Part shown: piece after piece, positions 3,453-56,668 of the stretch
Numbering within the stretch: the stretch's first letter is position 1
Layout of the letters: each line of letters starts with the position of its first letter
From: Mesorhizobium sp.
GTDB lineage: Bacteria > Pseudomonadota > Alphaproteobacteria > Rhizobiales > Rhizobiaceae
Length of the DNA stretch: 64,000 nucleotides
Assembly (NCBI GenBank): GCA_004017535.1
Contig: SAJS01000001.1
Span: 186,001 to 250,000 of the forward strand
Reading direction: 5' to 3'
The notes under the pieces: generated by a model
Seen by the model: the letters and a program-made list of their open reading frames with translations, nothing else
Databases searched by the model: none
What the model was told of the DNA's origin: nothing
Program-made: the position numbers and the translations under genes

Positions 3453-3483
3453 CCGTTTGAACGTAGATTACAGGAGCACAGCG

Positions 3484-4278
3484 ATGAGCGGTTTGGCCGG
3501 TCGCAATTCTGAAACACGCGCCATCGTCACCGGCGGCGCGCAGGGCATCGGCTTCGCCGTTGCCGAGGCCCTGGCCGACGAGGGCTGCCGCGCGCTGGCG
3601 CTGATCGGTCGCTCGCAGGAGAAGGGCGACAAGGCGGTGGCAGTGCTGAAGAAGAACGGCGTCGACGCCATCTTCATCAGCGCCGACGTCGCCAAGGTCG
3701 CCGACTGCAAGCGCGCGGTCGCAACGGCGCTTGAGCATTTCGGAGCCTTGAACGCGCTGGTCAACGCCGCCGCCACGTCCGCGCGAGGGTCGTTGGTGGA
3801 GACCACCCAAGAGCTCTTCGACCAGATCTTCGACACCAATGTCCGCGGCCCCTTCTTCCTGATGCAGGGCCTCGTCGCGCATCTGCTCGAACGCAAGGCC
3901 CCGGGCTCGATCGTCAACGTGCTGTCAATGTCGGCGCATGCCGGCCAGTCCTTCCTCACGCCCTATTCGACCAGCAAAGGCGCGCTGATGACGCTGACCA
4001 AGAATGTTGCCAGCGCCTACCGGAAGAACCGCATCCGCTGCAACGCCGTGCTGCCTGGATGGATGGACACCGAGGGCGAGGCGATCGTGCAGAAGAAATG
4101 GCACGGAGCGTCGGATGACTGGCTGGAGAAGGCCGAGGCCGCGCAGCCGATGGGCCAGCTGGTCAAGCCGGCGCAGCTCGCCCGGCTGATCACCTATATG
4201 CTGAGCCCGCAGGCCGGCGTCATGACCGGTTCTTTGGTGGACTACGATCAGAATATAGCCGGCGTCATAAGCGAGTGA
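3484..4278 (+). CDS. SDR family oxidoreductase
   Basis: A 264-residue classical short-chain dehydrogenase. The cofactor motif TGGAQGIGFAV, the structural NAAATS, and the catalytic YSTSK (Tyr-x-x-x-Lys) are intact. The frame opens at 3457, but the ATG at 3484 has CAGGAGC nine bases upstream. It follows iolG by 31 bp, so it is probably co-transcribed and acts on a cyclitol or sugar taken up by the same operon, perhaps oxidising a different hydroxyl or another inositol isomer. The substrate cannot be read from the sequence. Confidence 0.88.
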   Translation: MSGLAGRNSETRAIVTGGAQGIGFAVAEALADEGCRALALIGRSQEKGDKAVAVLKKNGVDAIFISADVAKVADCKRAVATALEHFGALNALVNAAATSARGSLVETTQELFDQIFDTNVRGPFFLMQGLVAHLLERKAPGSIVNVLSMSAHAGQSFLTPYSTSKGALMTLTKNVASAYRKNRIRCNAVLPGWMDTEGEAIVQKKWHGASDDWLEKAEAAQPMGQLVKPAQLARLITYMLSPQAGVMTGSLVDYDQNIAGVISE

Positions 4279-4319
4279 GGCGCGGCCGAAGTCCTGTTGC
4301 AGCAGCATCGCCATTCCCA

Positions 4320-4345
4320 TATAGTCATAATGGTCAGACTAGTCA
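4320..4345 (+). promoter_or_regulatory. Candidate promoter/operator of the toxin-antitoxin pair
   Basis: A -10-like CATAAT (4326-4331) is followed directly by the perfect palindrome GACTAGTC (4337-4344), 12 bp before the antitoxin start. Phd/YefM antitoxins normally repress their own promoter at such palindromes. No convincing -35 box is seen, so this is a suggestion only. Confidence 0.35.
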
Positions 4346-4356
4346 CGAGGGATACG

Positions 4357-4620
4357 ATGCTAACGTCACCCAAAGATGCCAACTGGACGGTCGCCGGGGC
4401 AAAAGCCCGCCTATCCGAGGTCATCGAGCGCGCACAGTCTTCACCGCAGACAATCACCAAAAACGGCAAGCCAAGCGTGGTCGTCGTCTCAGCGGAGGAA
4501 TGGCAGCGAAAGACAGTGCGTAAAGGCACGCTTGCGGAGTTCCTGCTGGACTCGCCGCTGCGTGGCGCCGATATCGACCTGGACCGGCAACGCGACCAAC
4601 CGCGCGATCTGCCGCTGTGA
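4357..4620 (+). CDS. Type II antitoxin, Phd/YefM family
   Basis: An 87-residue protein. Its N-terminal half (NWTVAGAKARLSEVIERAQ, then TITKNGKPSVVVVSAEEW) is the Phd/YefM DNA-binding fold; the remainder is the toxin-neutralising tail. The frame opens further upstream, but the ATG at 4357 has CGAGGGA six bases before it and gives a normal antitoxin length. The stop overlaps the toxin GTG by three bases (GTGA), the usual tight coupling. It should bind and inactivate the PIN toxin and repress the shared promoter. Confidence 0.88.
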   Translation: MLTSPKDANWTVAGAKARLSEVIERAQSSPQTITKNGKPSVVVVSAEEWQRKTVRKGTLAEFLLDSPLRGADIDLDRQRDQPRDLPL

Positions 4621-5039
4621 GGCTGCTACTCGATACGAATGTGCTATCCGAGGTGACGAGGCCAGCGCCGGATACACGCGTTCTGGAGTGGCTGAACGAG
4701 CTCGATGAGGACCGCTCCTTCATCAGCGTCGTATCAATCGCCGAGATCCGGCGGGGCGTTGCCCTCATGGACGAGGGCCGCAAACGCGAGGCACTGGCCG
4801 AATGGCTCGCACGCGACCTACCGCAGCGCTTTGACCAGAGGGTATTGCCGGTAGACGAAGCCGTTGCCTTGGCCTGGGGCGACCTGATGGGTCTTGCCAA
4901 GCGCCGTGGCCGCGGTCCGTCGTCTATGGATGGCATGATCGCGGCTACTGCGATTGCGCGGCAGCTCACCTTGGCGACGCGCAATACGAAGGATTTCGAG
5001 GGCTTTAGAATAGAGCTCTTCGATCCTTGGAACGCATGA
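4617..5039 (+). CDS. Type II toxin, PIN-domain ribonuclease (VapC/FitB-like)
   Basis: A 140-residue PIN-domain endoribonuclease starting at a GTG inside the antitoxin stop. The metal-binding acidic residues expected of an active toxin are visible: Asp6 in LLLDTNVLSE, Glu43 in SIAEIRRG, Asp105 in SSMDGMIAATA, and Asn123/Asp126 in TRNTKDF. It would cleave RNA when free of the antitoxin. The pairing with a Phd-type rather than VapB-type antitoxin is common for the FitB-like subgroup. The pair sits between the inositol operon and the DAHP synthase with no link to either. Confidence 0.9.
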   Translation: MRLLLDTNVLSEVTRPAPDTRVLEWLNELDEDRSFISVVSIAEIRRGVALMDEGRKREALAEWLARDLPQRFDQRVLPVDEAVALAWGDLMGLAKRRGRGPSSMDGMIAATAIARQLTLATRNTKDFEGFRIELFDPWNA

Positions 5040-5123
5040 ATCCGGGCCGTATGTCGAGTGTAAAGAGCGTCCCCATTTGCTCCGTCACAAGAGAATTGAG
5101 ACGATCTGTAGCTTCAAAGACAG

Positions 5124-5152
5124 GTGACAAGCGCCCTCCCATCGACTATATG
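5124..5152 (+). promoter_or_regulatory. Candidate sigma-70-type promoter of the DAHP synthase leader
   Basis: GTGACA (5124-5129, five of six bases of TTGACA) and TATATG (5147-5152, four of six bases of TATAAT) are separated by exactly 17 bp. Transcription would start at about 5159, which is the A of the leader-peptide ATG. This fits a leaderless mRNA, as I recall for the trp leader of Sinorhizobium. No ribosome-binding site is seen before the leader, which agrees with that. Confidence 0.45.
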
Positions 5153-5158
5153 ACCCGC

Positions 5159-5236
5159 ATGATCCACCTGACCGCCTCGTTTTGGTACTTTAGCTACGGT
5201 AGCTCGCTGGCGGCGGGAGGATTGCGCTCGATCTGA
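5159..5236 (+). CDS. Aromatic leader peptide (attenuator) upstream of the DAHP synthase
   Basis: A 25-codon open frame, MIHLTASFWYFSYGSS then LAAGGLRSI, with five aromatic codons in a six-codon run (TTT TGG TAC TTT AGC TAC, 5180-5197). An in-frame ATG at 5150 would add three residues. The frame ends 23 bp before a terminator hairpin and 89 bp before the GTG of a DAHP synthase, the entry enzyme of Phe, Tyr and Trp synthesis. The arrangement is that of a ribosome-mediated attenuator: stalling at Phe, Trp or Tyr codons would favour the antiterminator and let transcription continue. The frame lacks a Shine-Dalgarno site and may be translated leaderless. Confidence 0.7.
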   Translation: MIHLTASFWYFSYGSSLAAGGLRSI

Positions 5237-5286
5237 AAACTCCAGATCAAAATCCGACAAGCCGCCAGACCTGGCGGCTTTTTTAT
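5207..5286 (+). terminator. Attenuator: terminator with competing antiterminator arm
   Basis: GCCGCCAG (5261-5268) pairs perfectly with CTGGCGGC at 5271-5278, inside a ten-base-pair stem AAGCCGCCAG/CTGGCGGCTT followed by a T run (5279-5284): a textbook rho-independent terminator. The identical arm CTGGCGGC also occurs at 5207-5214 in the last third of the leader frame and can pair with the same 5261-5268 segment, forming a mutually exclusive antiterminator. CCGCC at 5172-5176 could sequester the upstream arm when ribosomes do not stall. Confidence 0.8.
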
Positions 5287-5324
5287 TTCAGCCGGCAGGT
5301 CTCCTAAACCAGGAGCAGAAAGCC

Positions 5325-6416
5325 GTGTTGACCACCACAGACGACCTTCGGGTCACCGAAATCAGAGCCTTGAGCACGCCGGACGAGGTGATGCGCGAGA
5401 TACCGCGCTCGCTTACGGCGACGCGCACCGTTGCTGCCTCGCGCAACGCCATCCATTCCATCCTGACCGGGGCCGACGATCGACTGCTTGTCATCGTCGG
5501 CCCTTGCTCCATCCACGATCCGGTCGCGGCCGTTGACTATGCCAGCCGTCTGGCGGCGCTGCGCGAGACCCTGGCCGACCGGCTCGAGATCGTCATGCGC
5601 GTCTATTTCGAGAAGCCGCGCACCACGGTCGGCTGGAAGGGTCTCATCAACGATCCCGATCTCGACGGCAGCTTCAACATCGAGAAGGGCCTGCGCATGG
5701 CGCGCAATGTGCTCTCGGCCGTCAACAATCTCGGCCTGCCGGCGGCGACTGAGTTCCTCGACATGACCATCCCGCAATATATCGCCGACCTCGTCGCCTG
5801 GGGTGCCATCGGCGCGCGCACCACCGAAAGCCAGATCCATCGCGAGCTGGCGTCGGGCCTCTCCTGCCCGGTCGGCTTCAAGAACGGCACCGACGGAAAT
5901 CTCAGGATTGCCGGCGAAGCAGTGAAGTCGGCGGCGCAGCCGCACCATTTCATGGCAGTGACCAAGGGCGGCCGCAGCGCGATCGCGGCGACGACGGGCA
6001 ATGAGGACTGTCATGTCATCCTGCGTGGCGGCATTCAGCCGAACTACGATGCCGCAAGCGTCGATGCCGCCGCCGCCGAGCTCGGCCGCATCGGCGTGGC
6101 GCCGCGGCTGATGATCGACGTCAGCCACGCCAACAGTGCGAAAAAGCCGGAGAACCAGCCGAAGGTTGCGCATGATGTGGCGGGCCAGGTAGCGGCGGGC
6201 GACGAGCGCATCATCGGCGTCATGATCGAGAGCAATCTCGTCGCCGGTCGGCAGGACGTCGCGCCCGGCAAGCCGCTTACCTACGGCCAGAGCATCACCG
6301 ACGGCTGCATCGATTGGGCGACCACCGAGACGGTCCTGCACGGCCTCGCCGGCGCCGTCGAGTGGCGCCGGTCGGTGAAGCGCGAGATGCTCGCGACCCG
6401 TCAGGGCGCGGCGTGA
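5325..6416 (+). CDS. aroG: 3-deoxy-7-phosphoheptulonate synthase, class I (DAHP synthase)
   Basis: A 363-residue class I (AroFGH-type) DAHP synthase that condenses phosphoenolpyruvate with erythrose 4-phosphate, the committed step of the shikimate pathway. Family blocks are in order: GPCSIHDP, MRVYFEKPRTTVGWKG, GARTTESQIHRE, GFKNGTDG, and IDVSHANS near the C-terminus. The start is a GTG with AGGAG nine bases upstream, reached after the attenuator at 5207-5286. Its feedback specificity (Phe, Tyr or Trp) cannot be assigned here; the mixed Phe/Trp/Tyr leader hints at control by all three. Many rhizobia rely on class II enzymes, so this may be a second isozyme. Confidence 0.95.
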   Translation: MLTTTDDLRVTEIRALSTPDEVMREIPRSLTATRTVAASRNAIHSILTGADDRLLVIVGPCSIHDPVAAVDYASRLAALRETLADRLEIVMRVYFEKPRTTVGWKGLINDPDLDGSFNIEKGLRMARNVLSAVNNLGLPAATEFLDMTIPQYIADLVAWGAIGARTTESQIHRELASGLSCPVGFKNGTDGNLRIAGEAVKSAAQPHHFMAVTKGGRSAIAATTGNEDCHVILRGGIQPNYDAASVDAAAAELGRIGVAPRLMIDVSHANSAKKPENQPKVAHDVAGQVAAGDERIIGVMIESNLVAGRQDVAPGKPLTYGQSITDGCIDWATTETVLHGLAGAVEWRRSVKREMLATRQGAA

Positions 6417-6426
6417 CCCAAAAGGC

Positions 6427-6450
6427 GAGGGCGGCGATCACGCCGCCCTC
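6427..6450. terminator. Bidirectional hairpin between aroG and the LysE-type gene
   Basis: GAGGGCGGCG-ATCA-CGCCGCCCTC is a perfect ten-base-pair stem between two convergent genes, overlapping the last codons of the LysE-type gene. On the minus strand it is followed by a short T-rich stretch. It probably ends transcription from both sides. Confidence 0.6.
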
Positions 6451-7073
6451 AACCCTTCCAAGGCAGTGAATAGCGAAACGGCAAACAGCAGCAGTCCCGC
6501 TGCTCTGCCGGCAAATATGGTCGCTCGCGGATTGTCGACCAGCAGCCCGCGGCTGCGGCCCGCGGTGACGGCGAGCCCGCCATAGATCGCCGCCTGCGTC
6601 GCAACCGTCAGCAATCCCATGATCGTCGCCTGCATCCAGATCGGACCGTAAGCCGGCTTAAGGAATTGCGGATAGACGGCGAGGATGAAGAGATAGGCCT
6701 TTGGATTGATTAGGCAGGTGACCAGTCCCTGGCGGAACGCCTTCCAGGCCGAGCGGCTGCCGGCTGGCCCGCCATCGCCAACGGTGATCGAACTGCGCAT
6801 CAGCGAAATACCGATATAGGCCATATAGGCGGCGCCGGCGATCAGCAGCGGCGTGAACAGGATCGGCACGAAATGCATGAGCAGGCCGACGCCGATCGCG
6901 CCATTCAGCGTGTGCACCGCGCCGCCCAGCATGATGCCGGCCGTGGCCGCCAGGCCTCGATTGCTGCCGCCGGTCAGCGCATTGGCCAGCACGAACAGCA
7001 TGTCCATGCCTGGAACGGCAATGATGCCGAACAGAAGCACGAAGAACAGCCAGAGGTTTTCGCCATAACTCAT
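6438..7073 (-). CDS. LysE family translocator
   Basis: A 211-residue inner-membrane exporter of the LysE/RhtB family with about six hydrophobic segments. The family motif PGMDMLFVLANALTGG follows the first membrane segment (about residues 20-35). The frame extends to 7127, but the ATG at 7073 (MSYGENLWLFF) gives the normal LysE length. Members export amino acids or homoserine-type compounds; the substrate here is unknown. The gene is divergent from the WYL regulator at 7199, and GTCAGTTG abuts its start codon, which suggests control by that regulator. Confidence 0.88.
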   Translation of the reverse strand: MSYGENLWLFFVLLFGIIAVPGMDMLFVLANALTGGSNRGLAATAGIMLGGAVHTLNGAIGVGLLMHFVPILFTPLLIAGAAYMAYIGISLMRSSITVGDGGPAGSRSAWKAFRQGLVTCLINPKAYLFILAVYPQFLKPAYGPIWMQATIMGLLTVATQAAIYGGLAVTAGRSRGLLVDNPRATIFAGRAAGLLLFAVSLFTALEGLRAA

Positions 7074-7178
7074 GTCAGTTGCCTGTCGCTCGCCCGCACG
7101 GGCGAAAAGGAATCTGTTGATTTTCAACCGGGTAGGCCGCCCTATAGGTCACGCCAACTGACGGGGGTGTGTCAGTTG
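7074..7178. promoter_or_regulatory. Candidate operator of the WYL regulator, lysE intergenic region
   Basis: A perfect inverted repeat CAACTGAC-N8-GTCAGTTG lies at 7155-7178, 20 bp before the regulator gene. A third copy of GTCAGTTG is at 7074-7081, directly against the start codon of the divergent LysE gene. The ten-base string TGTCAGTTGC occurs at both ends of the region (7073-7082 and 7170-7179). Confidence 0.5.
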
Positions 7179-53620: not shown

Positions 53621-55333
53621 ATGGCCAGGATTAGTCGCGCCGCCTATGCGCAGATGTATGGACCGACGGTCGGCGACAAGGTGCGGCTCGCCGACACCGA
53701 GCTGTTCGTCGAGGTCGAGAAGGACCTCACCGTCTACGGCGAGGAAGTGAAATTCGGCGGCGGCAAGGTTATCCGCGATGGCATGGGCCAGAGCCAGGTG
53801 ACGCGGGCAGAGGGCGCCGTCGACACCGTCATCACCAATGCGCTGGTCGTCGACGCGCTTGCCGGCATCGTCAAGGCCGATATTGGCCTGAAGGATGGCC
53901 GTATCGCCGCGATCGGCAAGGCCGGTAATCCGGATACGCAGGATGGCGTCACCATCATCATCGGCCCTGGGACCGAGATCATCGCCGGCGAAGGCAAGAT
54001 CCTCACCGCCGGCGGCTTCGACGCGCATATCCATTTCATCTGCCCGCAGCAGATCGAGGAAGCGCTGATGAGCGGCATCACCACCATGCTCGGCGGCGGC
54101 ACAGGCCCGGCGCATGGCACCTTGGCCACCACCTGCACGCCCGGCCCCTGGCATATGGCGCGCATGATCCAGTCCTTCGACGCCTTCCCGATGAATATCG
54201 GCCTGTCGGGTAAGGGTAATGCGTCAAAGCCGGCGGCGCTGGAAGAGATGGTGCTGGCTGGCGCCTGCTCGCTGAAGCTGCATGAGGATTGGGGCACGAC
54301 GCCGGGCGCCATCGATTGCTGCCTGTCGGTCGCCGACGCTTACGACGTGCAGGTGATGATCCACACCGACACGCTGAACGAATCGGGCTTCGTCGAGAAC
54401 ACGGTGGCGGCCATCAAGGGCCGCACCATCCATGCCTTCCACACCGAGGGCGCCGGCGGCGGCCATGCGCCCGACATCATCAAGGTCTGCGGCCTGCCCA
54501 ACGTCATCCCGTCCTCGACCAACCCGACCCGGCCTTACACGCTCAACACATTGGCAGAGCACCTCGACATGCTGATGGTCTGCCATCATCTGTCGCCGTC
54601 GATCCCCGAGGACATCGCCTTCGCCGAAAGCCGCATCCGCAAGGAGACGATCGCGGCGGAGGATATCCTGCACGACATAGGCGCCTTCTCGATCATCTCC
54701 TCCGACAGCCAGGCCATGGGCCGCGTCGGCGAGGTGGCGATCCGCTGCTGGCAGACCGCGGACAAGATGAAGCGCCAGCGCGGCGCGCTGCCCGATGAAA
54801 CCGGCGACAACGACAATTTCCGCGTCCGCCGCTACATCGCCAAATACACCATCAATCCGGCCATCGCGCACGGCCTGTCGAAGGAGATCGGCTCGATAAC
54901 GGTCGGCAAGCGCGCCGATCTCGTGCTGTGGAATCCGGCCTTCTTCGGCGTCAAGCCGGAGATGGTGCTGGTCGGCGGCTCGATCGCCGCTGCCCCCATG
55001 GGTGATCCGAACGCCTCGATCCCGACGCCGCAGCCGATGCACTACCGGCCGATGTTCGGCGCCTATGGCAAGGCGCTGACCAACTCCTCGGTGACCTTCG
55101 TCTCGAAGGCGGCGCTCGACGCCGGCCTGCGGGACAAGCTTGGCGTCGACAAGGCGATGGTCGCGGTCGAAAACACACGCGGCGGCATCAGCAAGCATTC
55201 CATGGTGCTCAACGACGCCACGCCGTATGTCGAGGTCGATCCGGAAACCTATGAGGTGCGCGCCGACGGCGAGCTCTTGACCTGTGAGCCGGCCACCGTG
55301 CTCCCGATGGCGCAGCGGTATTTTCTGTTTTGA
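53621..55333 (+). CDS. ureC: Urease alpha subunit
   Basis: A 570-residue catalytic subunit that hydrolyses urea to ammonia and carbamate with a dinuclear nickel centre. His136 and His138 in [13 protein letters not shown], the carbamylated Lys in SLKLHEDWG (about 219), the flap Cys-His in MVCHHLSPS (about 321), and the Asp in [14 protein letters not shown] (about 362) are all present. The ATG at 53621 has GGGAG nine bases upstream; the frame extends 20 codons further. It lies 1270 bp after ureB. Confidence 0.97.
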
Positions 55334-56017: not shown

Positions 56018-56062
56018 GCGTTCGCGATGCGGTAGGGTTCTCGGAAAGGCAAGGGTTCAACC

Positions 56063-56668
56063 ATGTACAAGGCTGTCGGATCGCGCGGCTCCCGCGTCAG
56101 CCGGGTGCTCTGGATGCTCGAGGAACTCGGGCAGCCCTACGCGTTCGTCGAGGTGAAGCTGCGCTCGCCGGAAGCCTATGCGCTCAACCCCTCAGGCAAG
56201 GTGCCGATCCTGATCGACGGCGACCTGAAAATCACGGATTCGGCGGCGATCTGCGTCTATCTGGCCGACAAGCATGCCGATAGAGGCATGGGCGCTGATC
56301 CGGGTGTCGCCGGCCGTGCCGAGATGGATTCCTGGATGCATTTCGCCCAGAGCGAGCTGGAAGCCCCGCTATGGAACAAGCTGCGCCACCGCTTTCTCTT
56401 GCCCAAGGATGTCCGGGTCGATGTCGGCCCGGCCGCGGCCTATGATTTCGCATCCGAAATAAAGGCCTTGGGCCGCCGGCTTGGCGATAAGCCCTATGCC
56501 TTGGGCGACCGCTTCTCGGCCGTTGACGTCTTGCTCGGCGATATGGGCGGCTGGGCCCGCGCCGGCCGTTTCCCTATCGAATCCGAACGCGTGAACGCCT
56601 ATTTCGACCGTGTCCTTCAGCGCCCCGCCCGTGCCAGGGCGCAGGCCAATGGCGGAGCCATGAAATGA
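56063..56668 (+). CDS. Glutathione S-transferase family protein
   Basis: A 201-residue GST: thioredoxin-like N-terminus [20 protein letters not shown] (20 residues), [14 protein letters not shown], and [15 protein letters not shown] (the Asp-Ser that binds glutathione), then a helical C-terminus with [14 protein letters not shown]. Its ATGA overlap with ureE shows translational coupling, yet GSTs are not known urease factors. A thiol-protective or metal-related role is a guess. Confidence 0.88.

Follow-up and report, generated by a model that had tools for sequence, protein, structure and literature searches.

A probable ribosome-mediated attenuator with Phe, Trp and Tyr control codons upstream of an aroG-type DAHP synthase gene in Mesorhizobium

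Introduction

What is the role of a short open reading frame (ORF), rich in aromatic codons, that lies just upstream of an aroG-type gene for 3-deoxy-D-arabino-heptulosonate 7-phosphate (DAHP) synthase in a 64,000-nucleotide stretch of Mesorhizobium sp. DNA (contig SAJS01000001.1; the whole stretch is hereafter called the window)? An original prediction, made from the letters of the sequence, held that this ORF encodes the leader peptide of an attenuator controlling the downstream gene. It also proposed that relatives be searched for the aromatic codons, the alternative base pairings and covariation in the pairing arms. From the comparative sequence analysis described below, we judge that the region very probably functions as a ribosome-mediated transcription attenuator of aroG, which would operate as an OR gate answering to a shortage of any aromatic amino acid.

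Results

Architecture of the aroG leader

Re-reading of positions 5159 to 5327 agreed with the original prediction in every base and coordinate. The leader features all lie on the forward strand. As had been claimed, a 25-codon frame (5159-5236; MIHLTASFWYFSYGSSLAAGGLRSI, followed by the stop) runs from ATG 5159 to the TGA at 5234-5236 and carries the control codons Phe-Trp-Tyr-Phe-Ser-Tyr, which are read directly at 5180-5197 (TTTTGGTACTTTAGCTAC) and whose aromatic character recurs in relatives. A further in-frame ATG lies upstream at 5150, but it overlaps the likely -10 box. ATG 5159 is kept in all 34 loci whose AroG is at least 84% identical, and the in-frame ATG 5150 in 30 of these.

The leader can be divided into four regions. 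Region 1 (5160-5176) is the putative protector strand, which the minimum free energy (MFE) folds of 5150-5287 and 5150-5258 join to region 2. Region 2 (5207-5223), which is evident from direct reading, from folds and from relatives, combines CTGGCGGC at 5207-5214 with GGATT at 5219-5223, and region 3 (5251-5268) combines AATCC at 5251-5255 with GCCGCCAG at 5261-5268, the latter being common to antiterminator and terminator. A second copy of CTGGCGGC, at 5271-5278, forms the arm of region 4. The alternative pairing put forward originally, in which GCCGCCAG joins either 5207-5214 or the copy at 5271-5278 with its T run, is therefore borne out. A terminator scan places the intrinsic terminator formed by regions 3 and 4 at 5259-5288, with a stem of nine pairs and a four-nucleotide loop (5259-5280) and a T-rich tail from 5279. 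As in known leader-peptide attenuators, this terminator lies between the leader ORF and aroG, and the antiterminator begins just past the control codons and is mutually exclusive with it. Three nucleotides separate the end of region 1 from the first aromatic codon, and nine separate the last aromatic codon from region 2, a gap also found in 24 of 43 representative relatives. To the codons, arms and terminator of the original prediction we add a putative region 1 and a predicted promoter, neither of which it had named. The likely ribosome binding site of aroG is AGGAGC, read directly at 5311-5316.

Both competing folds can be obtained from the window sequence, which makes a four-region attenuator possible in the window itself. 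The whole leader folds as 1:2 plus 3:4 (-52.6 kcal/mol, z -3.89), and the segment 5192-5270, which contains neither region 1 nor region 4, folds as a long 2:3 hairpin (-33.4 kcal/mol, z -3.73). Within this hairpin GGATT and AATCC form an inner helix, and GATCTG 5230-5235 with CAGATC 5243-5248 forms an apical one that contains the stop codon. The apical hairpin (5230-5248) is a trait of the window sequence and does not align in all relatives.

Chance seldom produces these parts. When both strands of the 64 kb were scanned for an eight-nucleotide arm, its complement spaced to form a hairpin, a T run and a further copy of the arm upstream, the aroG leader was the one match. The arm triple arose in none of 5000 dinucleotide shuffles of 5100-5324, in which a hairpin plus T run alone arose four times, and when the upstream 300 nucleotides were shuffled 2000 times, a short ORF with at least five aromatic residues in eight appeared 3 times.

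Similar leaders precede AroG relatives

Searched with the DNA of 5100-5700, 59 of 61 genus members give a match, which in two of the 59 (G013 and G051) is confined to a short stretch within the gene (labels beginning with G and L are our handles for genomes and loci). A broader sample of 140 loci with AroG relatives was reduced to 134 by dropping 6 duplicates and to 132 by dropping 2 with fewer than 250 nucleotides upstream; these are the nearest AroG relatives and are rich in Mesorhizobium. Short ORFs rich in the amino acids of the pathway are widespread in this set: at least four aromatic residues in eight are found upstream of AroG in 115 of the 132 loci (154 of 2640 shuffles), at least five in 95 (20 of 2640 shuffles), and at least six of F, W or Y in 66 (1 of 2640 shuffles). 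Conservation of the aromatic codons extends beyond Mesorhizobium.

Judged by sequence, leaders resembling that of the window stand before AroG relatives in Mesorhizobium, Bradyrhizobium, Devosia, Rhodanobacteraceae, Xanthomonas, Burkholderiaceae, Oxalobacteraceae and two Paracoccus plasmids. Examples of the predicted peptides come from Bradyrhizobium (SYFWYFSYDSSLAAGG), Xanthomonas (SFYFWYYGFPMPLAEEG), Caballeronia (KFYFYFFWHLRPLADREG), Dyella (RYYFWFYGYPMPLAEVG) and Massilia (FFTRYFYFSHSSPWRW). The large Paracoccus plasmids NZ_CP087599 (L212) and NZ_CP044425 (L213) each carry AroG with a leader, scoring 39.0 and 34.2 bits, respectively, and thus gene and switch may move together. No annotated leader gene is present on either plasmid in the gene table seen, which is itself incomplete.

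Exact GGCGG/CCGCC/GGCGG arms are present in 104 of the 115 leader-bearing loci. The remaining 11 (L040, L042, L043, L048, L059, L072, L079, L090, L092, L094 and L140) were left out, and the 104 were thinned at 85% likeness to the 43 representatives used here, all of which hold the exact core.

Frame phase and base-pair changes

Among 46 loci whose AroG is at least 76.5% identical, the distance from the first aromatic codon to arm 2 is 23, 26, 29 or 32 nucleotides, and hence of one phase in all 46, and the distance from the stop codon to arm 3 is 24-27 nucleotides and takes all phases. The keeping of frame phase through insertions and deletions is an indirect sign that the leader ORF may be translated. 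In 5 of the 43 representatives the letters of arm 2 are unchanged though they stand in another reading frame, and for this reason arm 2 looks to be selected as RNA.

Counted by cell, changes on both sides of base pairs are more numerous than expected in each of the competing helices. In the terminator such changes occupy 26 cells, where shuffles average 7.3, and the covariation score is 0.169 against 0.084; neither value was reached in 500 shuffles. For the antiterminator the figures are 35 cells, where shuffles average 20.4 (none of 500 as high), and a score of 0.133 against 0.096 (2 of 500 as high). Both alternative pairings are kept beyond Mesorhizobium. Joint pairing in the two helices is seen for the base preceding GGCGG in 28 of 43 representatives (permutation mean 22.9), for the base following it in 18 of 43 (14.6) and, with a slight excess, for the base two before it in 28 of 43 (24.8). 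Covariation in the arms, which the original prediction had proposed to test, is accordingly limited, the support coming from flanking positions and from the frame-independent arm letters. In nature the GGCGG core hardly varies, and in the aligned set it does not vary at all, owing to how the set was chosen. With the core fixed in this way, its pairs are uninformative either way.

Specificity and history of the leader

We searched 398 Pseudomonadota genomes with a covariance model built from the 43 leaders, using filters at the cost of weak matches. In 48 genomes the model gave a single full-length match scoring 39.8 bits or more, and all 48 matches precede an AroG-type gene; this count should be read with the knowledge that every model sequence was picked before an AroG gene and that some of the 48 (the window's own genome and G054 at least) are members of the model. 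Given that the strong matches are tied to one target, the leader can be annotated. The window's own genome has one strong match, the next scoring 27.4 bits.

Ten places below 39.8 bits were inspected, and one of these (G500, 32 bits) precedes AroG. Others precede pheS (L200, L201), pheA (L207) and trpE (L203), genes that were confirmed by NCBIfam, and their leaders carry FFFYFS, FFFAFFFTF and NWWWAR runs. These matches are a natural positive control, as they reveal that the model detects attenuators of the leader-peptide kind. The places L202, L204, L206, L208 and L210 are bare terminators or ambiguous, and the listed matches under about 35 bits are mostly partial and fall at the terminator end.

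At gathering score, Rfam reports no family in the leader region of the window. The region scores 25.2 bits against a gathering score of 55 for Phe_leader (RF01859) and 18.2 against 41 for Trp_leader (RF00513). Among 20 related loci, the gathering score is reached once, by a glycine riboswitch that L075 carries 3' of its aroG. A separate candidate, BjrC1505 (RF02356), was dropped with 19.8 bits against a gathering score of 50 and two Bradyrhizobium loci that gave no gathering-score match.

In a quick tree of 73 AroG proteins, 57 were counted as leader-bearing, including L094, which lacks arms and carries a Chloroflexota label, and L048, L059, L079, L090 and L092, whose arms are incomplete or non-exact. 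The leader label changes 5 times on this tree against a shuffled mean of 15.5, a mean computed with L080, which does have a leader, labelled leaderless, and removal of L094 yields the same number of changes. On one side of a well supported branch, all 28 rows (alphaproteobacteria, Rhodanobacteraceae and Lysobacteraceae) are leader-bearing. The pattern fits an old leader that was kept with AroG and lost in some lines, although it falls short of proving a single gain.

Predicted promoter and leaderless start

A predicted promoter at 5123-5151, recognised by direct reading and by a conserved pattern, consists of GGTGAC (5123-5128), a 17-nucleotide spacer and CTATAT (5146-5151). The pattern, defined as TGAC, a spacer of 12-21 nucleotides, a CTATAT-like box and 6-9 nucleotides before an in-frame leader ATG, occurs in 53 of 64 same-order loci and in 1 of 12,800 mononucleotide shuffles, as well as in 11 of the 17 same-order representatives. 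In the 53 loci the spacer is 17 nucleotides long in 52 and 18 in 1, and the distance from box to ATG is 7 nucleotides in 39 and 8 in 14. With the spacer narrowed to 12-17 nucleotides, the counts are 52 of 64 loci and 0 of 12,800 shuffles. A generic sigma-70 scan of the region found no promoter.

With the -10 box 7 nucleotides before ATG 5159, the transcription start is predicted to fall on the A of that codon. The leader mRNA is therefore probably leaderless, its RNA starting at or beside the ATG.

Discussion

Proposed mechanism

In the mechanism that we envisage, RNA synthesis would begin on or next to ATG 5159, and ribosomes would translate the leader peptide from this leaderless RNA. If tRNA-Phe, tRNA-Trp or tRNA-Tyr were poorly charged, the ribosome would pause on F-W-Y-F(-S-Y) and cover region 1, leaving region 2 free to pair with region 3 as the latter emerges. 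The 2:3 structure would block the terminator, and aroG would be transcribed. Were all three amino acids plentiful, the ribosome would reach the stop codon and regions 1 and 2 would pair behind it before region 3 exists, so that the 3:4 terminator could form and a leader RNA of about 130 nucleotides would end near 5284-5288. Because any of the three codon types can hold the ribosome, the arrangement would amount to an OR gate for shortage. The leaderless start, the masking of region 1, the act of termination and the set of amino acids that count are points that we infer, and the masking argument relies on the geometry of the leader and on textbook ribosome footprint sizes.

Several observations weigh against this interpretation. 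The fractions of paired cells among the 43 representatives, 95.8% for the terminator and 85.2% for the outer helix of the antiterminator (55.8% for its inner helix), arise partly by construction because the 43 were picked for an exact core; with the five core pairs removed, 154 of 170 cells are paired in 3:4 and 77 of 123 in 2:3. Counted by pair, two-sided changes are seen at 3 terminator pairs against 1.4 (46 of 500 shuffles as high) and at 8 antiterminator pairs against 6.3 (55 of 500 as high), and joint pairing at arm positions -3, +6 and +7 does not exceed permutations in the 43 representatives. The 1:2 helix exhibits no covariation over the 43 relatives; 59.4% of its cells are paired, a level that 86 of 500 shuffles attain, as against 61.0% when it is slid by +3, and MFE folds pair the arm-2 core with upstream sequence in 24 of the 43. 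In 21 of the 43, 25 nucleotides separate the stop codon from GGCGG, and with textbook footprints a terminating ribosome at that distance would miss the arm-2 core. No Shine-Dalgarno sequence was seen by eye upstream of the leader ATG. Finally, AroG relatives occur in 225 of the 398 genomes (E value up to 1e-60) against 49 in which a leader was confirmed before AroG, and no leader was recognised for 16 of the 73 AroG genes placed in the tree. As covariation was looked for in the 1:2 protector helix and not found, we keep that helix as a putative part of the model. In L047, L050, L056 and L058 the stop codon begins 10 nucleotides past the start of GGCGG, near enough that arm 2 could be masked directly by a ribosome terminating there.

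Alternative explanations

The most serious competitor accepts the same attenuator and holds that one or two amino acids only, such as Phe, exert control, the other aromatic codons being passengers. Trp is absent from the run in 13 of the 43 representatives, which counts against the three-amino-acid form of our interpretation, and runs with Phe and Tyr but no Trp typify the Oxalobacteraceae loci L047, L049-L052, L056 and L058 and the Bordetella locus L046. Within the genus, Arg replaces Trp in the leader of L030, and in one model match, L156, Asn replaces Tyr. The C. glutamicum aroR leader provides a precedent, Tyr availability being without effect there according to the available passages of PMC11802643. 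On the other side, 30 of the 43 hold all three aromatic residues within the run, and W, Y and F stand together in nearly all listed same-order leaders despite adjoining insertions and deletions. Control by fewer amino acids is thus a real possibility, one to which we would give somewhat less than an even chance.

Nascent-chain arrest of the TnaC type, with an aromatic peptide that stalls the ribosome on a free metabolite rather than in response to tRNA charging, would accord with the near fixation of WYF in leaders of the window's order. Elsewhere the order and identity of the aromatic residues vary by lineage (FYFYFFW, FYFWYY, FFTGYFYFS, YFWFYGY), and such variation is easier to reconcile with codon sensing than with an arrest peptide of set shape, making this idea very unlikely. 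Slightly less improbable, though we still attach little weight to it, is the notion that the system serves chiefly to make the terminated RNA, its peptide or both for action in trans, with attenuation secondary. The predicted leaderless layout does resemble that of rnTrpL as portrayed in the consulted portions of PMC7298713, yet attenuation alone explains the tie of all the strong matches to aroG. We reject the view that the hairpin is the ordinary terminator of an upstream vapBC-like pair, which ends at 5039, accompanied by a chance ORF. Intergenic terminators are common and the pair is on the same strand, but the conserved promoter sits between vapC and the leader, VapC is variable (7 of 33 genus loci) while the leader stays, and the aromatic runs and arm triple exceed shuffles.

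A ribosome-mediated attenuator of aroG therefore remains our preferred explanation, and in this the original prediction is supported by the anatomy, the phase-keeping insertions and deletions, the conservation and the association of all 48 strong model matches with AroG-type genes. A more ambitious proposal, that an old OR-gate attenuator has been kept vertically and travels with the AroG lineage through alpha-, beta- and gammaproteobacteria and onto Paracoccus plasmids, with the roughly 130-nucleotide RNA or its peptide also acting in trans, strikes us as speculative and rather unlikely.

The aroG gene and its surroundings

The next gene does encode the first enzyme of aromatic synthesis, as had been stated originally. 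It is aroG (5325-6416, forward strand, GTG start), and its 363-residue product is assigned as a type I-alpha DAHP synthase by PF00793, by TIGR00034 (521.8 bits against a cut-off of 173.2) and by a match to the E. coli AroG structures 1n8f and 1gg1 (E value about 1e-137; 9.4e-138 for 1n8f). The score under the stricter NCBIfam AroG model NF006723 is 534.5 against a cut-off of 568, and with the protein well above the one cut-off and below the other we call it AroG-type and leave the inhibiting amino acid unclaimed. The closest named AroG genes are those of named Mesorhizobium records, at 91-95% identity. AroG is patchy across the window's order, being found in 30 of 249 genomes (E value up to 1e-40).

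Before the aroG promoter, the last genes, on the same strand, encode a Phd/YefM-type antitoxin (PF02604) and then a PIN-domain VapC-like toxin (PF01850; the two together at 4297-5039). In the genus loci L001-L033 the VapC count contrasts with that of a short-chain dehydrogenase/reductase (SDR) gene (window 3457-4278), which is present in 32 of 33, and the toxin pair is thus seen as a variable insert outside the aroG unit. Adjoining aroG on the reverse strand is a gene for a LysE-type amino acid exporter (6438-7127), assigned by its PF01810 domain match.

The genome also encodes a type II DAHP synthase (G000:C5:107544-108854, L211; PF01474, E value 1.6e-209), as do 40 of 41 members of the genus. 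Upstream of this gene there is no short ORF with more than three aromatic residues in eight, and the leader model gives no match to L211 at E values up to 1. The contrast between a putatively switched aroG and an apparently unswitched type II enzyme would make their division of labour testable. Elsewhere in the window, Rfam matches were recorded for 5_ureB_sRNA (53771-54062, reverse strand, 118.5 bits) and for the Mesorhizobium small RNA MH_s36 (56024-56113, forward strand, 58.8 bits).

Comparison with known systems

If the proposed attenuator is real, the entry step of the pathway would be governed by one cis-acting switch, responsive to any of the three end products. For rhizobia, Burkholderiaceae and Xanthomonas, this raises the question of which aromatic amino acid is limiting in the cell. 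E. coli is described, in the available passages of PMC5343134, as having three DAHP synthase isoenzymes and the regulators TyrR and TrpR.

Control codons, antiterminator and terminator are elements that the aroG leader has in common with the E. coli pheA, pheST, trp and ilvGMEDA leaders, although it falls below the Rfam gathering scores of Phe_leader and Trp_leader. Leaders that read several amino acids are classical, that of E. coli ilvGMEDA reading three. Among DAHP synthase genes, the closest likeness is the aroR leader of C. glutamicum aroF, reportedly described by Neshat et al. in 2014, where an aromatic-run leader peptide likewise stands ahead of the gene. In the consulted parts of PMC11802643 and PMC4046766, this leader carries Phe-Tyr-Phe, and ribosome stalling raises transcription under limitation for Phe, not Tyr. 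The original prediction had called a leader reading all three aromatic amino acids on an aroG-type gene unusual; that description is right in part, since an attenuated DAHP synthase gene with Phe-Tyr-Phe codons is already on record and leaders for several amino acids are classical. The aroR leader is actinobacterial, and those passages name Phe and Tyr only; the window leader has codons for all three aromatic amino acids and a CTGGCGG arm set common to alpha-, beta- and gammaproteobacteria. The likeness that we claim is one of functional analogy alone.

Table 7 of PMC1173090, drawn from Merino's database, lists predicted attenuators upstream of the aroA(I-alpha)Y-tyrA operon in Vibrio. This resembles our case in that an attenuator precedes an operon starting with a type I-alpha DAHP synthase gene, but that operon includes tyrA, and the portions of the article available give no leader peptide. 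Among the matches listed from the open-access literature, with subscription literature mostly outside that scope, no account of a proteobacterial aroG leader was found, and the passages available from PMC2965389, PMC4833913, PMC5343134, PMC4117421, PMC3937554 and PMC1273637 contain no description of one.

A close rhizobial counterpart is S. meliloti trpL, a ribosome-mediated attenuator whose rnTrpL RNA begins at the AUG of the leader ORF and attenuates trpE(G), as given in the consulted passages of PMC7298713 and PMC10117765. Its start at the AUG is reported there, whereas that of the window leader is predicted; in the same passages trpL differs in its Trp codons, 14-residue peptide, trpE(G) target and reported trans functions (rnTrpL/peTrpL). 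Set beside these systems, the aroG leader very probably represents a classical kind of attenuator, and we find it interesting for its breadth across Proteobacteria before aroG, its run of codons for three amino acids and its probable leaderless start.

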